Below, piece by piece: positions 47,251 through 58,505 of a DNA stretch of 64,000 bases (position 1 is its first letter; each line of letters starts with the position of its first letter). Under the pieces are notes generated by a model. The model had not been told where the DNA came from and did no database searches. It was given only the letters and a program-made list of their open reading frames with translations. The translations under genes were made by a program, and so were the position numbers. This DNA comes from Glycomyces algeriensis (GTDB taxonomy: Bacteria > Actinomycetota > Actinomycetes > Mycobacteriales > Micromonosporaceae), in contig NZ_JAPZVR010000009.1 of the NCBI RefSeq assembly GCF_027622855.1, positions 109,865-173,864 on the forward strand, in the 5' to 3' direction.

Positions 47251-48195
47251 TCAGCCCTTGATGGCGCCGGTGATGACGGCCTTGGTGAAGTGCTTCTGGA
47301 TGAACGGGTACATGATCACGATCGGGATGATCGTGCAGACCACGGCGGCCATCTTGAGCGAGGCCGCCGGGGCGTTCTCCATCCCGGACGAGATCGCGGC
47401 CGCGGCGGCCGCGTCCTGGCCCGCGGGCCCGGTCGAGGCGATGAGCCACTGCTGGATGAGCACCTGGATGGGCTTGGTCTCCAGCCCCGGGGTGTAGAGC
47501 ACCGCGAGGAAGTACGTGTTCCAGTAGCCGACCGCGTAGAACAGCCCGATGACCGCGAGGATCGCCTTCGACATCGGCAGCACCACCTTGAAGAGGGTGC
47601 GGAACTCGCCGGCGCCGTCGATCTTCGCGGCGTCGATGAGCTCCCCGGGGACGCTCGTCATGAAGAAGGTGCGCAGCACGATGAGGTTCCACGCGGAGAA
47701 GCACACCGGCAGGATGAGCGCCCACATGTCGTTGAGCAGGCCCAGGTCCTGGACGACCAGGTACGACGGGTACATGCCGGGGGCGAACAGGAGGGTGACG
47801 AGGATGGCGGTCAGCATCTTGCGGTGCCACACCGAGCCGGGCCGCGACAGCCCGTAGGCCGCGCCCACGGTGAGCACCAGGCTGATGGCGGTGCCCACGG
47901 CGGTGAGCATGAGCGTGAACAGCAGCGACTTCGTGACCGCGCCGCCGGAGAGGATCTCGCGGTAGGCCTGGAGGCTGATGTCGGTGGGCAGGAAGATCAT
48001 GTCGCCGCCGGAGCGGACCAGGGCGTCCTCGGTGGCGAGGCTCGTCGCGAGCACCGCCCACAGTGGAACGATGATCGCGGCGGCGTAGACGAGCAGGAAC
48101 AGCGCCTTGACGGACTTGCCGAGGAACGACGGCTCCTCGTCCCAGGCGGGGCGCTGGTCGCGGCGGCGGGAGCGGGTGGCGGTGAGGGTGCTCAT
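47251..48195 (-). CDS. Carbohydrate ABC transporter permease (CUT1, LplC/YtcP-like)
   Basis: 314 residues from ATG 48195, overlapping the preceding stop as ATGA. Six membrane helices and the permease EAA-loop (ELIDAAKIDGAGEFRTLFKVVLP) that docks on the ATPase. It resembles YtcP/LplC of Gram-positive bacteria. Third gene of the importer operon (50958 to 47251). No ATP-binding subunit is encoded in the operon, so a shared MsiK/MsmK-type ATPase is expected. Confidence 0.9.
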   Translation of the reverse strand: MSTLTATRSRRRDQRPAWDEEPSFLGKSVKALFLLVYAAAIIVPLWAVLATSLATEDALVRSGGDMIFLPTDISLQAYREILSGGAVTKSLLFTLMLTAVGTAISLVLTVGAAYGLSRPGSVWHRKMLTAILVTLLFAPGMYPSYLVVQDLGLLNDMWALILPVCFSAWNLIVLRTFFMTSVPGELIDAAKIDGAGEFRTLFKVVLPMSKAILAVIGLFYAVGYWNTYFLAVLYTPGLETKPIQVLIQQWLIASTGPAGQDAAAAAAISSGMENAPAASLKMAAVVCTIIPIVIMYPFIQKHFTKAVITGAIKG

Positions 48196-49175
48196 GACTT
48201 CTGGTAGATCCCTTGCTCTCCGAGGCGGTGGGCGATGTTGTTGGCGGCGAGGATGAGCAGGAGCCCGATGACGCCCTTGAACAGGCCCGCCGCGGTGCCG
48301 AGGGATTCGCCGTTCGCCGACAGGATCGTCCGGTAGTAGACGAACGTGTCGAGCACTTCCGAAGCGCCCCAGCCGACTGACGCGCGCTGCAGCTGGTACT
48401 GCTCGAAGCCGACCGAGAGGATGCTGCCGAGCTGGAGGATGAGCAGCAGGACGATGACGGGCCGGATGCTCGGCAGCGTGATGTGCCACAGCCGCTTCCA
48501 GCGGTTCGCGCCGTCCACGGCGGCCGCCTCGTACAGCGCGGGGTTGATCGACGCGAGGGCCGCGAGGAAGATGATCATGCCCCAGCCGGCGTCCTTCCAC
48601 GTCCACTGCAGCCACGCCAGGAACATGAAGCTGTCCGGGTCGCGCATGATGTCGAGCCGGTCCCCGCCCATGCCGACCAGCCAGCGGCTGAACAGGCCGT
48701 CCTGGCCGAGCACCTGGGTGAAGACCGAGACGACCAGCACCCACGAGAAGAAGTACGGCAGGTACACGATGGACTGGAACGTGCTGCGCAGCTTCGTGGA
48801 GATCACGCTGTGCATGAGCAGCGCGAGCCCGATCGAGGTCGGGAACACGAACAGCAGCTGCGCGAACGCGAACTGCAGGGTGTTGAGCAGCGCGTCGACG
48901 AAGTAAGGGTCCTCGAAGAGGATCTGGAAGTGCGTGAACCCGACGATCGGGTTCTCCCACAGCGACCGGTACGGGCTGTAGTCCATGAACGCGATGACGC
49001 TGTACGCCGAAGGGGCGTAGAAGAAGACCGCGAGCTGCGCCAGCGCGGGCACGGTGAGGACGACCAGCGGCCAGTCCAGTCGCAGCCGGTGGCGCAAAGG
49101 CTTGCGCCGGGGCGCGGTCGCGCGGGTCTTCGGTGGCGCGGCGGTCGGCGCCGCCGGTTCTGCTGTCACTGCCAT
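48192..49175 (-). CDS. Carbohydrate ABC transporter permease (CUT1, LplB/YteP-like)
   Basis: 327 residues from ATG 49175; an Ala/Pro/Arg-rich N-terminus is followed by six membrane helices. The EAA loop is LYEAAAVDGANRWKRLWHIT. The LplB/YteP group works with large (over 500 residues) lipoprotein binding proteins, as here. It lies 82 bp after the binding-protein gene and is coupled to the second permease by an ATGA overlap. Confidence 0.9.
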   Translation of the reverse strand: MAVTAEPAAPTAAPPKTRATAPRRKPLRHRLRLDWPLVVLTVPALAQLAVFFYAPSAYSVIAFMDYSPYRSLWENPIVGFTHFQILFEDPYFVDALLNTLQFAFAQLLFVFPTSIGLALLMHSVISTKLRSTFQSIVYLPYFFSWVLVVSVFTQVLGQDGLFSRWLVGMGGDRLDIMRDPDSFMFLAWLQWTWKDAGWGMIIFLAALASINPALYEAAAVDGANRWKRLWHITLPSIRPVIVLLLILQLGSILSVGFEQYQLQRASVGWGASEVLDTFVYYRTILSANGESLGTAAGLFKGVIGLLLILAANNIAHRLGEQGIYQKS

Positions 49176-49257
49176 GTCGCTCTCGTCGTCTCCGAAGGGA
49201 TCGTGGGGGGCTGTCCACAATGGGGGTGCGGGCGGTGCCGTGCCGCCCGCGCCGCCG

Positions 49258-50958
49258 TCACTCGCCGTGGAGCTGCTTGTAGGCCTTCTCGTAGAACTCG
49301 CGGGCCTCGTCGCCGCCTTCGGACTTCCAGGTCGCGACGGCACCGTCGAGCTCGCTGAGTTCGGCGCGGCCGTAGATGATGTCGTTGACCTTCTCGTCGA
49401 AGACCGAGCCGGCGTTGGTGCCGGACTCGGGGCTGGTCAGGCGCAGCCCCGCGAACGGGTTCGTGTCCAGGTACGGGAGGATCGCCTCGTCGAACGCGAA
49501 CCGGGCCTCGATGACGTCGGCGGGGCCCTCGAGCAGGTACTCGGTGGTGCCGCTCATCGCGGTGTAGGACAGGGAGTCCTGGAAGCCGCGGACCCCGGCC
49601 TCGGTCAGCGCGGGGCGGCCGTCGGCGTCGTACTCGAACTGCTGCCCCTCGAAGCCGAACTGGACGGTCTCGTACTCCTTGGTGCCGTAGGGCGCAGCCA
49701 CGTAGTTCGAGACGTCGAGCAGCTCGGCGATCGCGTCCTCGCCGAGGTCCTTGCGGAAGAACAGCCAGCCGCCCACGCCCCACGCGGAGTGGTACATCGG
49801 CTCGCGCCCTTGGAAGGTGAGCGCGCCGACCGGGCCGAGCTCGAACGCGGGGTTCTCGCCGGTGGCCCGCACCTCCTGCGTCATCTGCCACCAGCGGCTC
49901 CAGCCGTCCTGGTCGAACAGGATCTCGCCGGTCCGGTGGAGGGTCTTGCCGTCGAAGTCGGCGCTGCCCACGCTGGGGTGGCGCAGCTTCTCGTCGGTCA
50001 GGGTGCGCTGGAACTCGACCCACTCCTTGAACTCGGAGCGCTCGTAGTTGTGGACCAGGCCCGAGCCGTCCCACAGCCAGCCGGTGGCCTCGAGCCGGAA
50101 CCAGGCCTTGGAGATGTAGTCGGTGCCGCCGATGGCCCAGCGGCCAGCCTTGTCGTCGGACCAGGCACGGGCGGTCTCGAGCAGTTCCTCCACAGTGGTC
50201 GGCACGGCGAAGCCGCCTTCCGCCAAGAGGTCCGCGCGGTGGAAGAACGCGTTGGACGGCCCGCCGAGCAGGCCCCACGGCACGCCGTAGATCCCGGCGG
50301 AGCCCACCGGGTCCTCGGGGTCGGAGGACCAGACCGAGTCGGCCCAGGCGTTGTCGCCGCGGCCGGCCAGCAGCGGCCAGCGCTCGGCGATGTCGCCCGA
50401 TACGATGTCGGAGATGTCGGCGAACCGGTTGACGACGGTCTCGTTGAAGCCCGCGTGCGAGTTGGTCATCCACCCGAACATGAAGATCGCGTCGCCGAAC
50501 TCCTCGGCCTGGATCCACTGGGTCGACGCCTCGGCGAACGCCTCGCCGTCGCTCTGCACGAACTCGATCTTCGTGCCGCCGGTGGCCTCCTGCATCGCCA
50601 GGAGGTACGGGTCGTCCTTCGCCAGCGCCGGACCCCAGTTGGGGACGTAGACCTGGTAGGACCCGGAGTTGCTCGGCGGGTTCGCGATCGCCTTCGCGGG
50701 CGGGTTCGGGTACGCGAGGTAGCCGCTGGGGTGGTTCGGCGGCTCGCCGACGAGGTCGGGCTCGATCGGGAGCGGCCACTCCTTGTACGTGGGCAGGATG
50801 TCGAGCGTCTGGTCGACCTCCTGCACGTTGCCCTCGCCGCCGCTGACCTCGGCGCACGCGGACAGCAGGGGGAATCCGGCGGCGCCGGCGGTGCCGATGC
50901 CGGCCGCCTTGAGCAGGGAGCGGCGGCGGAACAATGAACCGTCTGAGGGAGTAGGCAT
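49258..50958 (-). CDS. ABC transporter solute-binding lipoprotein (LplA/YtcQ-like)
   Basis: 566 residues from ATG 50958 (GAGGA upstream). The signal combines a twin-arginine-like RRRSLLKAAG with a lipobox LLSAC, i.e. a lipid-anchored binding protein. The size and the layout (YKEWPLPIEPDLVGEPP near the start; GIYGVPWGLLGGPSNAFFHR centrally) match the LplA/YtcQ group that binds complex oligosaccharides or glycosides. First gene of the importer operon, whose promoter carries the ROK-regulon motif at 51069-51086. The ligand is unknown; alpha- and beta-galactosidase genes nearby make a galactoside likely. Confidence 0.9.
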   Translation of the reverse strand: MPTPSDGSLFRRRSLLKAAGIGTAGAAGFPLLSACAEVSGGEGNVQEVDQTLDILPTYKEWPLPIEPDLVGEPPNHPSGYLAYPNPPAKAIANPPSNSGSYQVYVPNWGPALAKDDPYLLAMQEATGGTKIEFVQSDGEAFAEASTQWIQAEEFGDAIFMFGWMTNSHAGFNETVVNRFADISDIVSGDIAERWPLLAGRGDNAWADSVWSSDPEDPVGSAGIYGVPWGLLGGPSNAFFHRADLLAEGGFAVPTTVEELLETARAWSDDKAGRWAIGGTDYISKAWFRLEATGWLWDGSGLVHNYERSEFKEWVEFQRTLTDEKLRHPSVGSADFDGKTLHRTGEILFDQDGWSRWWQMTQEVRATGENPAFELGPVGALTFQGREPMYHSAWGVGGWLFFRKDLGEDAIAELLDVSNYVAAPYGTKEYETVQFGFEGQQFEYDADGRPALTEAGVRGFQDSLSYTAMSGTTEYLLEGPADVIEARFAFDEAILPYLDTNPFAGLRLTSPESGTNAGSVFDEKVNDIIYGRAELSELDGAVATWKSEGGDEAREFYEKAYKQLHGE

Positions 50959-51048: not shown

Positions 51049-51086
51049 ACGGTACCCAGCCCGCAATACTTTGTCAACTGATGAAA
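51049..51086 (-). promoter_or_regulatory. Promoter and shared operator of the importer operon
   Basis: On the minus strand TTTCATCAGTTGACAAAG (51086-51069) includes the -35 TTGACA, and TACCGT (complement of 51049-51054) is a -10-like hexamer at exactly 17 bp. The same 18-bp element occurs before the GH36 and GH59 genes. Confidence 0.8.
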
Positions 51087-51145
51087 TCAAGTTGGCGAAC
51101 TAATCGGGCGGTTATCGCCTAAATTGCGGACGTATTGGTAATTAC

Positions 51146-51170
51146 GCCTACCCGGTTCCACTAGGTAGGC
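51146..51170. promoter_or_regulatory. Inverted repeat before the ROK gene
   Basis: GCCTACC (51146-51152) and GGTAGGC (51164-51170) are perfect complements 29 bp upstream of the ROK start. It may be an operator or a leader hairpin. It is unlike the 18-bp motif of the three regulated promoters, so any self-control would use a different sequence. Confidence 0.45.
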
Positions 51171-51198
51171 TTCACTCGAAACAAAGCGAGGAGCTGCA

Positions 51199-52359
51199 AT
51201 GACGAGTCCAACCGCCTTCGGCAACGCCGAGCCCGAGCCGTGGCCGGCGCTGGGCGGCGTCGAACGCCAGGCCCTGCGCGAGCTGCTCATCCACGGCCCG
51301 AAGTCCCGCGCCGAGATCGCACGCCAGCTCGGCATGTCGCGGGCGAGCCTCACCCGCGTCACCCGCACCCTCGTCGACCACGGCTTCGTCGCCGAAGGCG
51401 CCTCGGAACTGCGCGGCGCCACCGGCCGGCCCAGTGAACTCCTCCACGTCCGCCCCGAAGCCCGCAGCTTCCTCGGCGTCAAACTCACCGCCGAAGCCCT
51501 GTTCGCCGTGGTCACCGACCTCACCGCCAACGTCCTCACCGCCCACGACGAACCCCTGCGCTCCAAAGCCGTCGACGACGTCGTCGCCCAGATCGGCGAA
51601 GTCCACGACCGCCTCAAAGCCGCCCACCCGGACATCACGGCCGCCGGCATCGCCCTCCCCGGCGACGTCACCGAAAACGAAGGCCGCCAGGTCGTCGCCC
51701 AGTCCGTCTTCCTCGGCTGGCAGCAGGTCGAACTCGCCGGCCTCGTCAGCGACCGCCTCGGCATCCCCGTCGCCACCGAGAACGACGTGCGCTCCCTGAC
51801 CGCCGCCGAGCACTGGTTCGGCGTAGGCGCCGGATTCGACTCCATGGCGCTCCTGACCGTGGGCGCCGGCGTCGGCCTCGGCCTGGTCGTGGACGGCAAG
51901 GTCGTCACCGGCGCGCACGGCAAGAGCGCCCGGATCGACCACCAGCTCGTCGACTCCAACGGCCCCAAATGCGGGCAGGGGCACCGCGGCTGCGTCAGCA
52001 GCTACCTGCCCAACGGCTCGATCGTCGCCTCACTGCGCACCCCCGGACTCGACTACGACGCCGTCGTGGCGCTGGCCCGGGGCCGCGACCACGCGGCGAT
52101 GGCGGCCTTCGGCGACGCCGGCCGCGCGCTCGGTGTGCTGGTAGCGACCGTGGCCAACACGATGGACCCCGAGAAGATCGTGATCACCGGCGACGGCATC
52201 GCGGTCACCGAGATCGCCCGGAACGAGATCGCCTCCGCGATCGAGGCCCACCGCCACCCCTACGGCGCCCCGATCACCTTCGACATCCAGCCGTTCGAGT
52301 TCGGGGAGTGGGCCCGCGCCGGGGCGGTCCTGGCGATCCGCTCCTGCCTCCGGTTCTGA
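51199..52359 (+). CDS. ROK-family transcriptional repressor
   Basis: 386 residues from ATG 51199 (GAGGAG upstream). Residues ~20-75 are a MarR-like winged helix (SRAEIARQLGMSRASLTRVT). The ROK sugar-binding domain follows, with AGIALPGDVT, LTVGAGVGLGLVVDG and the ROK metal-binding cluster CGQGHRGCVSSYL (GHxGC with the third Cys replaced by a shifted pattern). ROK repressors of the XylR/NagC type bind sugars or sugar phosphates. It is divergent from the importer operon and just upstream of the GH36 gene, so it is the prime candidate to bind the shared 18-bp element. Confidence 0.9.
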   Translation: MTSPTAFGNAEPEPWPALGGVERQALRELLIHGPKSRAEIARQLGMSRASLTRVTRTLVDHGFVAEGASELRGATGRPSELLHVRPEARSFLGVKLTAEALFAVVTDLTANVLTAHDEPLRSKAVDDVVAQIGEVHDRLKAAHPDITAAGIALPGDVTENEGRQVVAQSVFLGWQQVELAGLVSDRLGIPVATENDVRSLTAAEHWFGVGAGFDSMALLTVGAGVGLGLVVDGKVVTGAHGKSARIDHQLVDSNGPKCGQGHRGCVSSYLPNGSIVASLRTPGLDYDAVVALARGRDHAAMAAFGDAGRALGVLVATVANTMDPEKIVITGDGIAVTEIARNEIASAIEAHRHPYGAPITFDIQPFEFGEWARAGAVLAIRSCLRF

Positions 52360-52370
52360 GACTACTTTAG

Positions 52371-52408
52371 TTTCGTCGATTGACAAAGAAACTTCCCGTG
52401 CCCATACT
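52371..52408 (+). promoter_or_regulatory. Promoter and shared operator of the GH36 gene
   Basis: TTTCGTCGATTGACAAAG (52371-52388) includes -35 TTGACA (52380-52385), and CATACT (52403-52408) is the -10 at 17-bp spacing. It begins 12 bp after the ROK stop, so GH36 need not depend on read-through. Confidence 0.85.
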
Positions 52409-52443
52409 TGGGCGTCCGCTGCAGTCGTCTCCGAGAGGCCCGC

Positions 52444-54645
52444 ATGAACGAGCCCGTATCCGGCATCGCCACGCCGCAGTCCCGCCCCGTGCCGGTCCGG
52501 TCCTCGCCCAGTACCGGCGCGCCCGAGACCGGCGAGCCGATCCTGGTCCTGCGCGGCGGCGGCGTCGCGGTCGTCGTGCACCTCCCTGACGACGGCCTCC
52601 CCGAAGTCCTCCACTGGGGCCGGGACCTGGGCGAACTCACCGGCGCCGACCTCGCCGGGCTGCGGTCGGCCCGTGCCCGGCCGGTCTCGCCGAGCGCGCT
52701 GGACGACCCCTGGCCGCTCACGCTGCTGCCCGGCGAGCACGACGGCTGGGAAGGCCGCCCCGGCTTCGCGGCCCACCGCGCCGGCCGCATCGAGCACCCC
52801 CGGTGGACGGTCGCCGAAGCCGCCGCGAAGCCCGAGAGCCTCCAGGTGCGCGCGGTGGCCGAGGGCCTCGCGCTCGACATCGAACTCGTCCTCGACGACG
52901 CCGGCGTCCTGCGCCTGCACCATGAACTCCAGAACACCGCTGCCGGACCGCTCGCGCTCACCGGCCTGGAAACCGTGCTCCCCGTAGGCGACCGCGCCGG
53001 TGAGGTCCTCGACTTCACCGGCCGCTGGACCCGCGAACGCGCCCCGCAGCGGCGCCCGCTCGCGCAGGGCAGCCACGTGCGCGAGACGCGCCGCGGCCGC
53101 ACGGGCCACGACGCCCCGTTCGTGCTCGCCCTCGGCACCCCCGGATTCTCAACGTCCACTGGGGAGGTCTGGGCGGTGCACCTCGCGTGGAGCGGCGACG
53201 CCGTCTACCGGCACGACGCGCTCCCGGAGGCCAAGCCGCTCATCGGGGCCGGGCCGCTCCTGCGCGCCGGTGAGATCGAGCTCGCGCCCGGGGAGTCGTT
53301 CCGCACGCCGGCAGGGGTGTTCGTCTGGAGCGACACCGGCACGGACGGCCTCGGCGCCCGCCTCCACCGCTCGCTGCGGTCCCGTGCGGCGCACCCGCGC
53401 ACGCCGCGTCCGGTCGTGCTGAACACCTGGGAGGCGGTCTACTTCCAGCACGACCTCGGCCGGCTCGCGTCGCTCGCCGACACGGCCGCGTCCATCGGCG
53501 TCGAGCGGTTCGTGCTCGACGACGGCTGGTTCAAGGGCCGCCGCGACGACTCCGCGGGCCTGGGCGACTGGACCGTCGACACCGGGGTCTGGCCCGAAGG
53601 GCTGCACCCGATCGCAGACAAGGTCCGCTCCCTCGGCATGCAGTTCGGGCTGTGGTTCGAGCCCGAGATGGTCAACCCCGACTCCGACCTCGCCCGCGCC
53701 CATCCCGAATGGCTGCTGCAGCCGCTGGACGCGGGCATCCGGACCTGGCGCGGCCAGTACGTGCTCAACGTGGCCCACCCGGACGCGTTCGACTACCTCC
53801 TGGACGCGATCGGCGCGCTCGTCGCCGAATACCGACTCGACTACATCAAGTGGGACCAGAACCGGGACCTGATCGAGGCCGTGCACGACGGCCGGGCGAA
53901 CGTCCACCGCCACACCGAGGCCGTGTACCGCCTGCTCGACCGCCTGAGGGCCGATCACCCCGGGCTCGAGATCGAGTCCTGCGCTTCGGGCGGCGCCCGC
54001 ATCGACCTGGGCGTGCTCGAACGCACCGACCGGGTGTGGGCCTCGGACACGAACGACCCGATCGAGCGCCTCGCGATCCAGCGCTGGACCGAGCTGCTCC
54101 TCCCGCTCGAGCTCATCGGCTCCCACATCGGACCGCCGGTCGCCCACACCACCCACCGCGCCGCGAGCCTGGACTTCCGGATCGCGACCGCGCTCTTCGG
54201 GCACGCCGGCATCGAATGGGACATCACCTCCTGCACCCCAAGCGAACTTGAACAACTGCGAGCAGGCATCAACGCCTACCGCCGCCTCCGGGGCCTGCTG
54301 CACACCGGGACGCTCACCCACTCCGAGACGGGCGACGACGGCGCGACCGCGACCGCGGTGACCAATGAGGACCGGAGCTGTGCGGTCGTCAGGCTCGCCC
54401 GGCACGCCACCGCGAGCCGCGCGCTCGCACCGATGCTCCGCGTCCCCGGACTCGACCCAAACGGACGCTATCGCGTTGCGCCCGTTGAGGAACTGACCGT
54501 CCCGCGCGGTCTGGACGACTCGCCGCCGCCGTGGCTCGCGACGGGGCTGGTCCTGCCCGGCTCGGTGCTCGCCGAGGTCGGCGTCCAGCCGCCGCTGCTC
54601 GCGCCAGGTGAAGCGCTCGTCCTCGAACTCACCCGCGACGCCTGA
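52444..54645 (+). CDS. Alpha-galactosidase, GH36 family
   Basis: 733 residues from ATG 52444. An N-terminal beta-supersandwich (~1-300) precedes the TIM barrel: NTWEAVYFQHD, FVLDDGWFKGRR, QFGLWFEPEMVNPDSDL, YIKWDQNRD with nucleophile D471, ESCASGGARIDLG, then WASDTNDPIERL, whose Asp (about 535) fits the acid/base position. A C-terminal beta domain ends the protein. There is no signal peptide, so it acts in the cytoplasm on imported alpha-galactosides. The promoter carries the shared ROK-regulon element. Confidence 0.92.
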   Translation: MNEPVSGIATPQSRPVPVRSSPSTGAPETGEPILVLRGGGVAVVVHLPDDGLPEVLHWGRDLGELTGADLAGLRSARARPVSPSALDDPWPLTLLPGEHDGWEGRPGFAAHRAGRIEHPRWTVAEAAAKPESLQVRAVAEGLALDIELVLDDAGVLRLHHELQNTAAGPLALTGLETVLPVGDRAGEVLDFTGRWTRERAPQRRPLAQGSHVRETRRGRTGHDAPFVLALGTPGFSTSTGEVWAVHLAWSGDAVYRHDALPEAKPLIGAGPLLRAGEIELAPGESFRTPAGVFVWSDTGTDGLGARLHRSLRSRAAHPRTPRPVVLNTWEAVYFQHDLGRLASLADTAASIGVERFVLDDGWFKGRRDDSAGLGDWTVDTGVWPEGLHPIADKVRSLGMQFGLWFEPEMVNPDSDLARAHPEWLLQPLDAGIRTWRGQYVLNVAHPDAFDYLLDAIGALVAEYRLDYIKWDQNRDLIEAVHDGRANVHRHTEAVYRLLDRLRADHPGLEIESCASGGARIDLGVLERTDRVWASDTNDPIERLAIQRWTELLLPLELIGSHIGPPVAHTTHRAASLDFRIATALFGHAGIEWDITSCTPSELEQLRAGINAYRRLRGLLHTGTLTHSETGDDGATATAVTNEDRSCAVVRLARHATASRALAPMLRVPGLDPNGRYRVAPVEELTVPRGLDDSPPPWLATGLVLPGSVLAEVGVQPPLLAPGEALVLELTRDA

Positions 54646-54652
54646 ACACGGG

Positions 54653-54689
54653 AAGAGGCCCTGCCGGGACCGACCCGGCAGGGCCTCTT
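54653..54689. terminator. Bidirectional terminator
   Basis: A perfect 16-bp stem (54653-54668 with 54674-54689) around ACCGA, starting 8 bp after the GH36 stop and ending 17 bp before the stop of the converging mannanase gene. Confidence 0.9.
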
Positions 54690-54705
54690 GCCTTGTGCGC
54701 CTAGG

Positions 54706-56073
54706 TCAGGCGGCGGCGCAGGTCACCTGCGCCGCATTGCTCGGGCCGGTGCCGATGAACCCGAAGACGCCGCGGGTCTGTCCCGCCGAGACCGTGGCGT
54801 TCCAGCCGACGTCGGAGGCCGTCACGGTCTTCCCCGCCTGGGCGAGGTCGGCGTTCCAGTGCGACGAGACCGTCTGGGAGCCGGGCCAGGTCCAGGTGAG
54901 CGTCCAGCCGTCGACCGCGCCGCTGTCGGCGGTGATGCTGACGTTGCCCTGCCAGCCCGAACCCCAGTCGCTCACGACCTCGATCTTCGCGGTGCAGTCG
55001 CCTCCGGCCGGAGTGCTCGGGTCCTCGGAGGTCGGCTCCTGCGACGTGGTCGGCTCGGTGCCGCCGTCGAAGACGGTGGCCCGCTCGGAGGTGGCCCCGA
55101 TGCCGTTGACGCCGTGGAAGACCCGCTCGCCCCACGGGCGCATCTGGGTCGGGTCGAAGCCGATCACCTGGTCGTGGTCGATGGCGCTGTTGCCGCTCCA
55201 GGACCACGCGATCCAGCCGATGCCGCGCTCCTGCGCCTCCTCCTCGATCGTCACCGGGGTGTCCGCGCCGAATTCGCCGACGATCAGCGGCAGGTTCTTC
55301 TCCTCGAACGCGTCGAAGTAGTCGATGACGGTCTGGCCTGCGGCGTACACGCTGTACATGTGGACCGAGAAGACGGTGTTGCTGAGGACGTCAGCGTCGA
55401 AGATGCGCTGGGCGGCATCGCCGTCGCGCATGGTGTTGGTCCAGTCCTGGCCCCAGTTCGGGGCGTCGACCACGAGGGTGTGCTCGAAGCCGATCTGGCG
55501 CATGCGCTGCACGGCGGCGGTGGTGGCCGGCTCCCAGCCGGCGACGTTGTCGTTGCCCCAGGCCTCGTTGCCGATGTTGATGAGGATGTACTCCTCCTCG
55601 CCGACGAGGACGTCCTTGATGGACTCCCAGTAGTCGACGGCCTGGTCGAGCGTGGCGGCGTTGGGGGCGTACTGGTCGCCGTAGCCGGTGGTGTCGTGGA
55701 CTTCGAGGACGCAGACGACCTTGTTGGCCTTGCACTCCTCGATGAGGTCCGCGACGGCGGCGGCGGGGCTGGGGCCCCACTGCTGGCCGGAGCCGAGCAC
55801 GACGCGGACCGTGTTGGCGCCGAGTGCGCTCATGTCCGAGATCGCCTCGGTCTCGCCCTGGTACCACTCGTGGGGGTGGGTGGAGCCGCGCATGACGAAG
55901 ACGTTCCCGTTGGCGTCCACCAGGTCGTTGCCGACGACGTGGAAACCGGAGGTCTGGGCCTGGGCGGCGGGGAGGAAGAACGCGGCGGCGGCTGCCGTGG
56001 CCGCGGCGGTGAGCACCGTGAGGAGCACTCGGCGAAGCGAACGCCGCCTGCCGGGCGCGGGTGTCGCTGACAT
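54706..56073 (-). CDS. Secreted GH5 (subfamily 8-like) endo-beta-mannanase with CBM2
   Basis: 455 residues. A Sec-type signal ends near AQA (residue 39). The catalytic domain (~42-340) closely matches bacterial GH5_8 mannanases: GFHVVGNDLVDANGNVFVMR, STHPHEWY, acid/base E170 in NIGNEAWGN and nucleophile E267 in IVGEFGA. A Thr/Ser/Pro linker (TEPTTSQEPTSEDPSTPAGG) leads to a CBM2 cellulose-binding module (~353-455) with the usual terminal cysteines and exposed Trp residues. It cuts beta-mannan backbones outside the cell. Its promoter does not carry the 18-bp ROK-regulon element. Confidence 0.88.
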   Translation of the reverse strand: MSATPAPGRRRSLRRVLLTVLTAAATAAAAAFFLPAAQAQTSGFHVVGNDLVDANGNVFVMRGSTHPHEWYQGETEAISDMSALGANTVRVVLGSGQQWGPSPAAAVADLIEECKANKVVCVLEVHDTTGYGDQYAPNAATLDQAVDYWESIKDVLVGEEEYILINIGNEAWGNDNVAGWEPATTAAVQRMRQIGFEHTLVVDAPNWGQDWTNTMRDGDAAQRIFDADVLSNTVFSVHMYSVYAAGQTVIDYFDAFEEKNLPLIVGEFGADTPVTIEEEAQERGIGWIAWSWSGNSAIDHDQVIGFDPTQMRPWGERVFHGVNGIGATSERATVFDGGTEPTTSQEPTSEDPSTPAGGDCTAKIEVVSDWGSGWQGNVSITADSGAVDGWTLTWTWPGSQTVSSHWNADLAQAGKTVTASDVGWNATVSAGQTRGVFGFIGTGPSNAAQVTCAAA

Positions 56074-56368
56074 GGTGGAACCTCTCTGCAGTCGATCGCC
56101 GTCGGAGGTCGGGCGTGCCGGGGCGATCGCGATTGATCACTGACCCGACCTCGGGATAGCTAAACATAAATGCCTCGATGAGTCAATCATCTATGTTCAA
56201 GTCAGAAACAAAACGAATGCGGCTGTCGCGGCCGTGTTTGGAACTAACCTGGCCTAATGCGCGAGTGCCTGCAGGCCGGTTTGTTCCATCCCAAGGACGG
56301 ACGCGACACGAGTCATCGGAAATAGGACGAGTTGCTCGCCACTGGAAACCAAGGCGACCATATGTTGG
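56074..56368. other. Divergent regulatory region between mannanase and GH59 genes
   Basis: A 290-bp stretch, AT-richer than the average of the window, with no gene. On the minus strand TTGACT (complement of 56181-56186), inside the perfect inverted pair GATGA/TCATC, is a likely -35 for the mannanase. An inverted repeat GAGGTCGGG/CCCGACCTC (56105-56113 and 56144-56152) lies in its leader. Confidence 0.5.
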
Positions 56369-56406
56369 TTTCATCCATTGACAAAGCGGAGCATCGTTCG
56401 TATCGT
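56369..56406 (+). promoter_or_regulatory. Promoter and shared operator of the GH59 gene
   Basis: TTTCATCCATTGACAAAG (56369-56386) includes -35 TTGACA (56378-56383), with -10 TATCGT at 56401-56406 and a 17-bp spacer, the third copy of the shared element. Confidence 0.85.
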
Positions 56407-56465: not shown

Positions 56466-58505
56466 ATGAGCAGTGAAGCCGAGCCCCGAGTGATCGAGCT
56501 GCGATCCGGGCCGCGCGACCGGCGGTTCGACGGCATCGGGGCGGTGAACGGCGGCGGGGCGACCTCGGCGCTGTTCAAGGACTACCCGGAGCCGCAACGC
56601 AGCCAGATCCTGGACCTGGTGTTCGCGCCACGGTTCGGGGCGTCGGTGAGCGCGATGCTGGTCGAGGTCCCCGGCGACGGCAACTCGACCCAGGGCTCGA
56701 TGCCCAGCCACATGCACACCCCGGACGACCTCGGCACGCACCGCGGCTACACGTGGTGGGTCATGCGGGAGGCCAAGCGGCGCAACCCGGACCTGAGCCT
56801 CGACGCCGTCGCGTGGAGCGCGCCGGGCTGGGTCGGAGACGGCGAGTACTGGTCGCAGGACATGGCCGACTACTACGTCTCCTGGGTGCAGATCCTGCGC
56901 GAGGTGCACGGCCTCGAGCTCGACGCCATCGGGTGCCGCAACGAGAAGGGCGTGAGCATCCCGTTCGCCAAGCAGCTCAAGGCCTCCCTCGAGAAGGCCG
57001 GGTTCGGGTCGATCGCCTTGCACGCCTTCGACAACTGGACGCCCGACAAGTTCGACTTCATCGAGGACCTGAAGCGGGACCCCGAAGCGGCCCAGGCCAT
57101 CGACGTCCTCGGCGGCCACGTGATGTACGGCGGCGAGGGCTCCGGCTCCAGCCCGGAGGTGCGCGCGTGGGCCGAGGAGACCGGCAAGCCGATCTGGAAC
57201 ACCGAGGACCACGTCTACCGCCCCGGTTTCGACTGCCTCATCGGCATCGTCGAGTGCTTCAACGAGAACTACCTGCTCCACGGGGCCACGAAGGTGGTGC
57301 TCTGGTACGACATCGCCGGAGTCTACCCGGTCGAGCCGTACCCCGAGGAGCCGGCGATGGTCGTCGCCCGCGAGCCCTGGAGCGGCCACTACGCCGTGCG
57401 CGAGGCGCTCTGGGGTTACGCCCACTATGGACAGTTCACGGAGCTCGGCTGGACCTACCTGCACGACGCCTCCACGGTCCTGGAGGGCGGCGGCACGGTC
57501 GTCGCCCTCCGCTCCGAGACGGGGGACTTCAGCCTCATCGCCGAGACCAAGGACGCCACCGGTCCCCAGCGCCTGCGGTTGCGCATCGGCGACGGCCTCG
57601 CCAATACGCCGATCACGGTGTGGCGCAGCACCGCCGAGGAGCAGTTCGTCCACATCGGCGTCATTGCGCCCGTCGACGGCGAGTTCGAGGTCGAGTTCGC
57701 TCCCGACGCCGTGTACTCGCTGTCCACGACCACCGGGCAGCGGAAGGGCGGCTTCGACGACGTGCCCGAGAGCCGGCCGTTCCCCTTCCCGTACCGCGAC
57801 ACCTTCGACGGCTACGGGGACGCGGCCGCCCGCGGGTTCCTGCCGCGCTACACCGCCGACATCGCCGGCGCCTTCGAACTGGCGCCCGACCCCGACGGCC
57901 AGGGCACCCTCCTGCGCCAGGCCGTGCCGCAGGCGCCGCACTCCTGGTCGCCGGACTGGCTGCCGTACACCGTGATCGGCGACGAGGCCTGGGACGACTA
58001 CGAGGTCGGCGTGCGGGTGCGGCTCGAAGCGGGCGAGACCGCGGCCGTCATGGGCCGCGTCAACCACGTCGGCACCGGGTACGGGTTCGTCCCCAAGTGC
58101 TACCTGTTCGAGCTGAACGCTGACGGCACCTTCCGGCTCCTCAGCGTCAACGGCAAGGAGGACAAGGCCGAGCTCGTGGGCGACGCCGAGCAGCAGGCCA
58201 TCATCGCCGCCGCGAACGATCGCGACCCCGGCGGCACCCGCGTGCTCGCCGCCGCCTCGATCACCGCACCGGCCGGGCAATGGCGCCACTTGACGCTGCG
58301 CTTCGAAGGCGGCCGCATCACCGGCCTCGTGGACGGCGAACCCGTCCTGACCGCCGACGACGCCACCCACGCGCGCGGCATGGCGGGCCTGCTCGCGGGC
58401 GCCGACAACGCCTACAGCACCGCGAGTTTCGCGGACCTGGTCGTCAAGGCCACCGGGACCGCCGATCCCGAGCCGTTCACCGATGCGGCGGCGCCCCTGT
58501 ACTAG
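56466..58505 (+). CDS. GH59-family glycosidase (galactocerebrosidase homologue), intracellular
   Basis: 679 residues from ATG 56466 (GAGGAG upstream). The N-terminus FDGIGAVNGGGATSALFKDY then PEPQRSQILDLVFAPRFGAS matches human galactocerebrosidase almost block for block. Acid/base Glu is E160 (RNEKGV) and the nucleophile is E247 (IWNTEDHVY). After the TIM barrel come a beta-sandwich (about 300-430) and a C-terminal lectin-like domain (YEVGVRVRLEAGETAAVMGR), so the full GALC architecture is kept. There is no signal peptide, unlike the lysosomal enzyme. It should remove beta-galactose from a small aglycone or sugar. It ends in a CTAG shared with the opposing gene. Confidence 0.9.
   Translation: MSSEAEPRVIELRSGPRDRRFDGIGAVNGGGATSALFKDYPEPQRSQILDLVFAPRFGASVSAMLVEVPGDGNSTQGSMPSHMHTPDDLGTHRGYTWWVMREAKRRNPDLSLDAVAWSAPGWVGDGEYWSQDMADYYVSWVQILREVHGLELDAIGCRNEKGVSIPFAKQLKASLEKAGFGSIALHAFDNWTPDKFDFIEDLKRDPEAAQAIDVLGGHVMYGGEGSGSSPEVRAWAEETGKPIWNTEDHVYRPGFDCLIGIVECFNENYLLHGATKVVLWYDIAGVYPVEPYPEEPAMVVAREPWSGHYAVREALWGYAHYGQFTELGWTYLHDASTVLEGGGTVVALRSETGDFSLIAETKDATGPQRLRLRIGDGLANTPITVWRSTAEEQFVHIGVIAPVDGEFEVEFAPDAVYSLSTTTGQRKGGFDDVPESRPFPFPYRDTFDGYGDAAARGFLPRYTADIAGAFELAPDPDGQGTLLRQAVPQAPHSWSPDWLPYTVIGDEAWDDYEVGVRVRLEAGETAAVMGRVNHVGTGYGFVPKCYLFELNADGTFRLLSVNGKEDKAELVGDAEQQAIIAAANDRDPGGTRVLAAASITAPAGQWRHLTLRFEGGRITGLVDGEPVLTADDATHARGMAGLLAGADNAYSTASFADLVVKATGTADPEPFTDAAAPLY

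Follow-up and report, generated by a model that had tools for sequence, protein, structure and literature searches.

An element overlapping the −35 box of three promoters in Glycomyces algeriensis is probably the operator of a local ROK-family regulator

This work concerns a 64,000-nucleotide stretch of the Glycomyces algeriensis genome (contig NZ_JAPZVR010000009.1, positions 109,865 to 173,864 of the forward strand; hereafter the window), for which an original prediction, made from the sequence alone, had proposed that one 18-bp element marks three promoters around a ROK repressor gene. We found computationally that the element is rare in the genome, is conserved in related species, occurs together with the ROK gene, and has a left half that co-varies with the recognition helix of the ROK protein. 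The element is thus very probably the operator of this protein, which would act as a repressor of a sugar importer, a GH36 alpha-galactosidase and a GH59 beta-galactosidase and be released by a galactosyl sugar.

Results

The genes of the locus and the three elements, in the extended form described below, are collected in Table 1. As originally described, the 18-bp elements read TTTCATCAGTTGACAAAG (51086-51069, minus strand), TTTCGTCGATTGACAAAG (52371-52388) and TTTCATCCATTGACAAAG (56369-56386), each holds TTGACA followed at 17 bp by the −10-like hexamer given in the table, and all three have TTT-N11-AAA edges; they differ, however, at three positions (5, 8 and 9) and not at four. The three promoters had also been called unlinked; they are indeed separate, but the word is loose for a span of only 5.4 kb. 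The conserved element exceeds 18 bp and reads TTNRTTTCATNNRTTGACAAA, then G or C, with slight dyad symmetry that extends little beyond (G)TTT/AAA(C). The genes behind the three copies are those of the ATP-binding cassette (ABC) importer, the GH36 alpha-galactosidase and the GH59 beta-galactosidase, the second copy lying between the ROK stop codon and the GH36 gene.

Table 1. Genes and candidate operators at the locus (window coordinates)
Feature	Position	Strand	Basis and remarks
ABC sugar permease B	47251..48195	−	BPD_transp_1
ABC sugar permease A	48192..49289	−	BPD_transp_1; 5' end uncertain
Importer solute-binding lipoprotein (putative)	49258..50958	−	LSAC lipobox, position, two permeases
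Candidate operator 1, TTGATTTCATCAGTTGACAAA	51070..51090	−	Importer promoter; −35 TTGACA 51077-51072, −10 TACCGT 51054-51049
ROK-family regulator, 386 aa	51199..52359	+	Helix-turn-helix (HTH) and ROK domain; recognition helix from S47: SRASLTRVTRTL
Candidate operator 2, TTAGTTTCGTCGATTGACAAA	52367..52387	+	GH36 promoter; −35 52380-52385, −10 CATACT 52403-52408
GH36 alpha-galactosidase	52444..54645	+	Melibiase 8.8e-113; PDB alpha-galactosidases
GH5 beta-mannanase with CBM2	54706..56073	−	Probably secreted (by eye)
Candidate operator 3, TTGGTTTCATCCATTGACAAA	56365..56385	+	GH59 promoter; −35 56378-56383, −10 TATCGT 56401-56406
GH59 beta-galactosidase (galactocerebrosidase homologue)	56466..58505	+	Glyco_hydro_59 1e-82; 3zr5 2.3e-84

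The claim that such agreement is unlikely by chance held in the window, which contains three matches at ≤3 mismatches where 100 shuffles gave a mean of 0.03. A genome-wide scan with the 18-bp element had been proposed, and when it was run over the 5,593,330 bases it gave no unrelated matches of equal score: at ≤3 mismatches, TTTCRTCNRTTGACAAAG matched the three sites perfectly and three more with 3 mismatches, a number of further matches that the reversed-pattern control also reached, and the wider pattern TTNRTTTCATNNRTTGACAAA found the three sites at 0, 0 and 1 mismatch and two others at 3, with none for the control. A matrix trained only on 19 promoter sites from other Glycomyces genomes, with a simple base-composition background, placed the three sites at ranks 1-3 among all window positions, with genome-wide expectations of 9e-9, 4e-6 and 3e-4.

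The shared sequence could instead be a class of strong promoter (TTGACA plus a −10), whose TTTC and AAAG flanks are incidental or determine promoter strength. The element does have a perfect −35 and usually a −10-like hexamer 17-18 bp on, and other promoter-like sequences, such as TTTTTTTCATGACTTGACATA, recur in many Glycomyces genomes. Once the −35 columns are removed from the matrix, moreover, the genome-wide expectations become 1.5e-4, 0.054 and 2.6, and the GH36 site, which is then not significant genome-wide, does not stand out by itself, coming fourth and ranking below the non-promoter match at 56329 (expectation 0.26). Against this explanation, the window holds seven TTGACA hexamers, and only these three sites have good left halves, the three best of the seven.

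The ROK gene, scored as present at E ≤ 1e-60, occurs in 13 of 22 Glycomyces genomes. Sites matching TTNRTTTCATNNRTTGACAAA at 0-1 mismatch were found in 12 of these 13 genomes and in none of the nine that lack the gene (Fisher's exact test, 2e-5, uncorrected for relatedness), and their absence from the latter likewise counts against a mere promoter class. The one ROK-bearing genome without such a site is G011, whose orthologous promoter carries a form with 3 mismatches. Beyond Glycomyces, a single 0-1-mismatch site was found in each of 5 family genomes out of 278. At 2-3 mismatches the pattern matches unrelated recurrent promoters as well, and does so in ROK-bearing and ROK-lacking genomes alike. 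The original prediction had suggested looking at the orthologous loci of relatives, and there the element is retained on one side of the ROK gene or on both: the importer promoter has it and, if the ROK gene is followed by GH36, the GH36 promoter mostly has it as well (identity of the ROK protein is 86% in G. harbinensis, 85% in G. arizonensis and 82% in G. albidus). Extra Glycomyces sites away from the ROK locus precede genes for BNR-type proteins (nearest PDB relatives of the one tested, xyloglucanases), GH5 proteins with CBM46 (in the one tested, endoglucanases nearest and xyloglucan-specific ones further down), an esterase, GH127 and a few unrelated-looking genes. The common thread of these targets, and of those in other families described below, would be galactose-bearing hemicellulose. 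In Glycomyces terrestris (L106, 16740, minus strand), a 2-hydroxyacid dehydrogenase gene is preceded by what is nearly a copy of the GH36 promoter, operator included.

Because column conservation is biased (45 sites had been picked with the same pattern), the promoters beside each of the 19 ROK genes of the genus were placed by −35 and −10 and not by the left half. Rows in which no such promoter was found were not counted: on the importer side G152b and G085b, and on the GH36 side G049 (element, no −10), G132 (4-mismatch element, no −10), G011, G069b, G152b, G108b, G153b and G085b. The importer promoters of G069a and G135a, whose −10 TAGCGT lies outside the script's pattern, were included after inspection by eye, and G011 was treated separately from both the canonical and the variant rows. 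Where the neighbouring ROK gene encodes the canonical helix SRASLTRVTR (own genome included), 12 of 13 importer promoters and 7 of 8 GH36 promoters have RTTTC as their left half, 19/21 in all, compared with 0/6 beside the SRTSLTVVMR clade (Fisher 9e-5, shared descent ignored). The ROKs of that clade (G153a, G108a and G135b) have TACG as the left half of the importer promoter in 3/3 cases, while TTGACAAA and TAC(C/G)GT are kept. At 0 mismatches the TACG pattern occurs only in those 3 of the 22 genomes, each of which also has a canonical ROK and TTTC sites elsewhere, and the variant ROKs group together with support of 100/99, nested within a clade of canonical ROKs. Sequence comparison thus supports an unusually clear case in which the left half-site co-varies with the ROK helix while the −35-bearing half stays.

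Since a left half that follows the helix at unchanged −35 and −10 is not what a promoter class predicts, we regard that explanation as very unlikely. The same data bear on a second alternative, in which the element is bound by some other regulator, either one of LacI type or a second ROK, while the ROK protein encoded here is a mere neighbour. Actinobacterial sugar operons are often under LacI-type control, and each Glycomyces genome gave 22 to 60 loose first-look matches to the ROK protein (unconfirmed as ROK regulators). However, a LacI-type operator is a palindrome with a central CG, unlike TTT-N11-AAA, the co-variation is with this ROK protein's own recognition helix, and where a genome has two such ROKs, as three do, both classes of site are kept, one at each ROK locus, so that a different regulator has very little probability.

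One scan of named genomes yielded 78 ROK loci, in which a site was accepted at ≤2 mismatches anywhere in the locus. It was present in 17/17 loci with the canonical helix, 13 of them Glycomyces loci already counted and four new, and in 0/61 other ROK loci, two of which (L236 and L237) lack the helix region. The idea of the same element at all ROK regulators is ruled out, as 61 of 78 loci are without it. Outside Glycomyces the element is carried by Agromyces albus (L182), Rathayibacter (L183), Microbacterium sp. HD4P20 (L194) and a Micrococcales metagenome-assembled genome (L181). One L194 site precedes genes for a solute-binding protein, two permeases (by position) and a GH42 beta-galactosidase, and the other a GH36 gene and a GH2 gene whose product has beta-mannosidases as nearest PDB relatives; the L182 site precedes importer-like genes (by position) and GH42, and those of L183 and L181 precede GH42.

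The ROK domain of the regulator (PF00480) was matched in Pfam at 9.5e-39 over residues 93-351, and HTH-type Pfam matches fell within residues 21-69, in the N-terminal segment aligned to Lmo0178, which with Mlc is among the related solved structures. Typical of ROK proteins, yet neither required nor defining for regulators, are the sugar-site motif ExGH and the zinc motif CxCGxxGCxE. Neither is present in residues 241-270 of this protein, which read RIDH and CGQGHRGCVS, and both are altered in most of the 40 orthologs shown, the clade form being RIDH and CxxGHRGC. Sugar and zinc binding in this clade may differ from that of textbook ROK proteins, and the altered motifs therefore caution against assuming either.

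In the alignment of the GH59 protein to 3zr5, NE and TED motifs are kept opposite NE and SED of 3zr5, and their glutamates are the catalytic residues of the family. No signal peptide was seen by eye on the GH36 or GH59 protein, and these enzymes would therefore act on imported oligosaccharides. The solute-binding lipoprotein had no Pfam, NCBIfam or PDB match; its orthologs in loci L037-L040 stand at 77-89%.

The GH59 operator is not a genus-wide feature. Although some GH59 match occurs in 11 of the 22 Glycomyces genomes, it is full-length and strong in only three (own, G049 and G145) and distant in the others, and the other two full-length genes are without the element: the G049 locus, covered for 1.4 kb upstream, has none at ≤5 mismatches, and the G145 locus has only a 5-mismatch match on the opposite strand. 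Among the eight weak GH59 loci (L116-L123), the four scanned, L116-L119, had no element match. Membership of GH59 in the regulon is lineage-specific. In the relatives' loci L039 (4998) and L043 (3741), the place opposite the mannanase that GH59 occupies here is taken by another solute-binding protein gene, the second in the locus, and the element stands before it with 2 and 3 mismatches, respectively, as if GH59 had been placed behind an already regulated promoter.

The mannanase is left out of the regulon because no copy of the element lies at its promoter on its own strand and a different element, AACATAGATGATTGACTCATCG...CATTTATGTT (56163-56197, minus strand), is conserved there, exact in L137 and loose in L138. 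An inverted repeat in the latter element, AACATA/TATGTT, suggests another operator. At 56329-56354 (minus strand), 10 bp from candidate operator 3 and facing the mannanase, there is a degenerate second copy of the left half, CCTTGGTTTCCAGTGGCGAGCAACTC; being degenerate and without a −35, this match was not counted as a mannanase operator.

Discussion

Because the element co-occurs with the ROK gene and its left half-site co-varies with the recognition helix, we assign it to this ROK protein; together with its rarity in the genome, these findings lend support to the original proposal of a small regulon of the local ROK repressor, although the binding itself, the geometry of the dimer, the sign (repression and not activation) and the nature of the inducer are what we infer from them. 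A ROK dimer would bind GTTTCAT-NN-RTTGACAAA(G/C) through a left half-site GTTTC and a right half-site GACAAA, and because the latter contains the −35 box, the bound protein would block RNA polymerase at three otherwise strong promoters. An imported galactosyl sugar, either galactose or a galactosylated oligosaccharide, would bind the ROK domain and cause the protein to leave the DNA, upon which the importer, GH36 alpha-galactosidase and GH59 beta-galactosidase would be made together. That the protein instead activates at these sites is very improbable: although a ROK-type protein, CysR, is called a dual regulator in the title of PMC2580772, the sites lie over a consensus −35 followed by a good spacer; such a promoter should work without an activator, and a protein bound there would be expected to block it.

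Several observations fit a ROK operator less well. Independent helix changes number one, or at most two with G011, and relatedness inflates the p-values. G011 itself, with helix SPSSLTRVTR, has TTGC on the left and a changed right half as well (TCGACA), and the GH36 promoters of the variant clade have lost TTTC without gaining TACG (GTACT, GTGTT, GTGAT). Beside canonical helices, one promoter each of G069b and G085a reads ATATC and GTTCC, respectively; G152b (L168), also canonical, has no element beside its ROK gene and only one ~4 kb away. L227, with the near-canonical helix SRASLTRIARTL, has no site in its locus, and the helix pattern that sets apart the 17 named loci, mostly Glycomyces loci counted before, was chosen post hoc. 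Some sites in relatives precede genes without a clear link (a desaturase, a 2-hydroxyacid dehydrogenase), and in Glycomyces harbinensis (G049; L037, 9966, minus strand) a perfect element follows the ROK gene with neither GH36 nor a −10, which looks like a relic.

The proposed system resembles that of Firmicutes XylR, likewise a ROK repressor of a local regulon for sugar import and hydrolases, and the B. subtilis XylR operator also has TTT-N11-AAA edges. It differs in that the operator shows little dyad symmetry and holds the −35 in its right half, and in that its targets are galactosidase and not xylose genes. Several ROK regulons with local operators are on record (PMC4856308, PMC2873477 and PMC3750489, as summarised there), and XylR motifs are reported in summary to differ between clades (PMC2873477). 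Streptomyces RokB and CsnR are actinobacterial ROK regulators with mapped binding sites too; as these are outlined in PMC4856308, RokB sites have a TVCVT centre and A-rich edges and CsnR binds CCTCTTCTGGTAGGAAACTTTCCTATCAGT, neither resembling the present element by eye, and their targets differ from the importer, GH36 and GH59 set. Bifidobacterium RafR, named in the same outline, is likewise a ROK regulator of a galactoside cluster, that for raffinose (an alpha-galactoside). Among titles and abstract openings of open-licence PMC papers, we found neither this motif nor a ROK regulon of Glycomyces described. The present analysis would give an operator, a regulator and a regulon to a ROK clade that is apparently uncharacterised and whose members occur in Glycomyces, Agromyces, Rathayibacter, Microbacterium and others. 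The clade offers a natural experiment in how a repressor helix and its operator change together when half the operator doubles as a −35 box, and the locus puts a bacterial homologue of the Krabbe-disease enzyme in a likely plant-polysaccharide context.

One could go further and envision the regulon as a machine for the side chains of beta-galactoglucomannan and its operator as a switch that evolves on one side, a joint reading that we offer tentatively and consider rather unlikely. This polymer of eudicot walls bears beta-Gal-(1,2)-alpha-Gal as its branches, according to the summary in PMC9614514. GH59, standing in for GH42 of other families in this species, would remove the outer beta-galactose and GH36 the inner alpha-galactose, while a mannanase or beta-mannosidase would handle the backbone. 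A beta-galactosidase, an alpha-galactosidase, a beta-mannosidase and an importer under one operator fit this branch structure. On the other hand, the window genome has several GH42 genes elsewhere, only one of the three Glycomyces genomes that have a full-length GH59 gene has the element there, and xyloglucan is what many of the relatives' extra sites point to. As for the switch, RNA polymerase would hold the −35 half, and therefore mainly the other half could follow changes of the helix; G011, with its right half changed too, is a partial exception. If true, bacterial GH59 would gain a role in plant-wall breakdown instead of a sphingolipid one.

Other forms of site appear upstream of ROK genes with other helices. 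In Plantibacter and four Microbacterium loci, whose helix is SRASLTRATR or near it, a different, long palindrome, ACTTTNTNA...GTAATAAAGT, was pattern-matched in L174 and L176 and read by eye in L175, L178 and L179; the L174 copy stands before a GH2 gene, perhaps for a beta-mannosidase. Yet another form, TTAGTCACGCAGGTTGGCAAAC, is common to the regions upstream of two Saccharothrix ROK genes (L172 and L177) with helix SRTSLTRVTREL.

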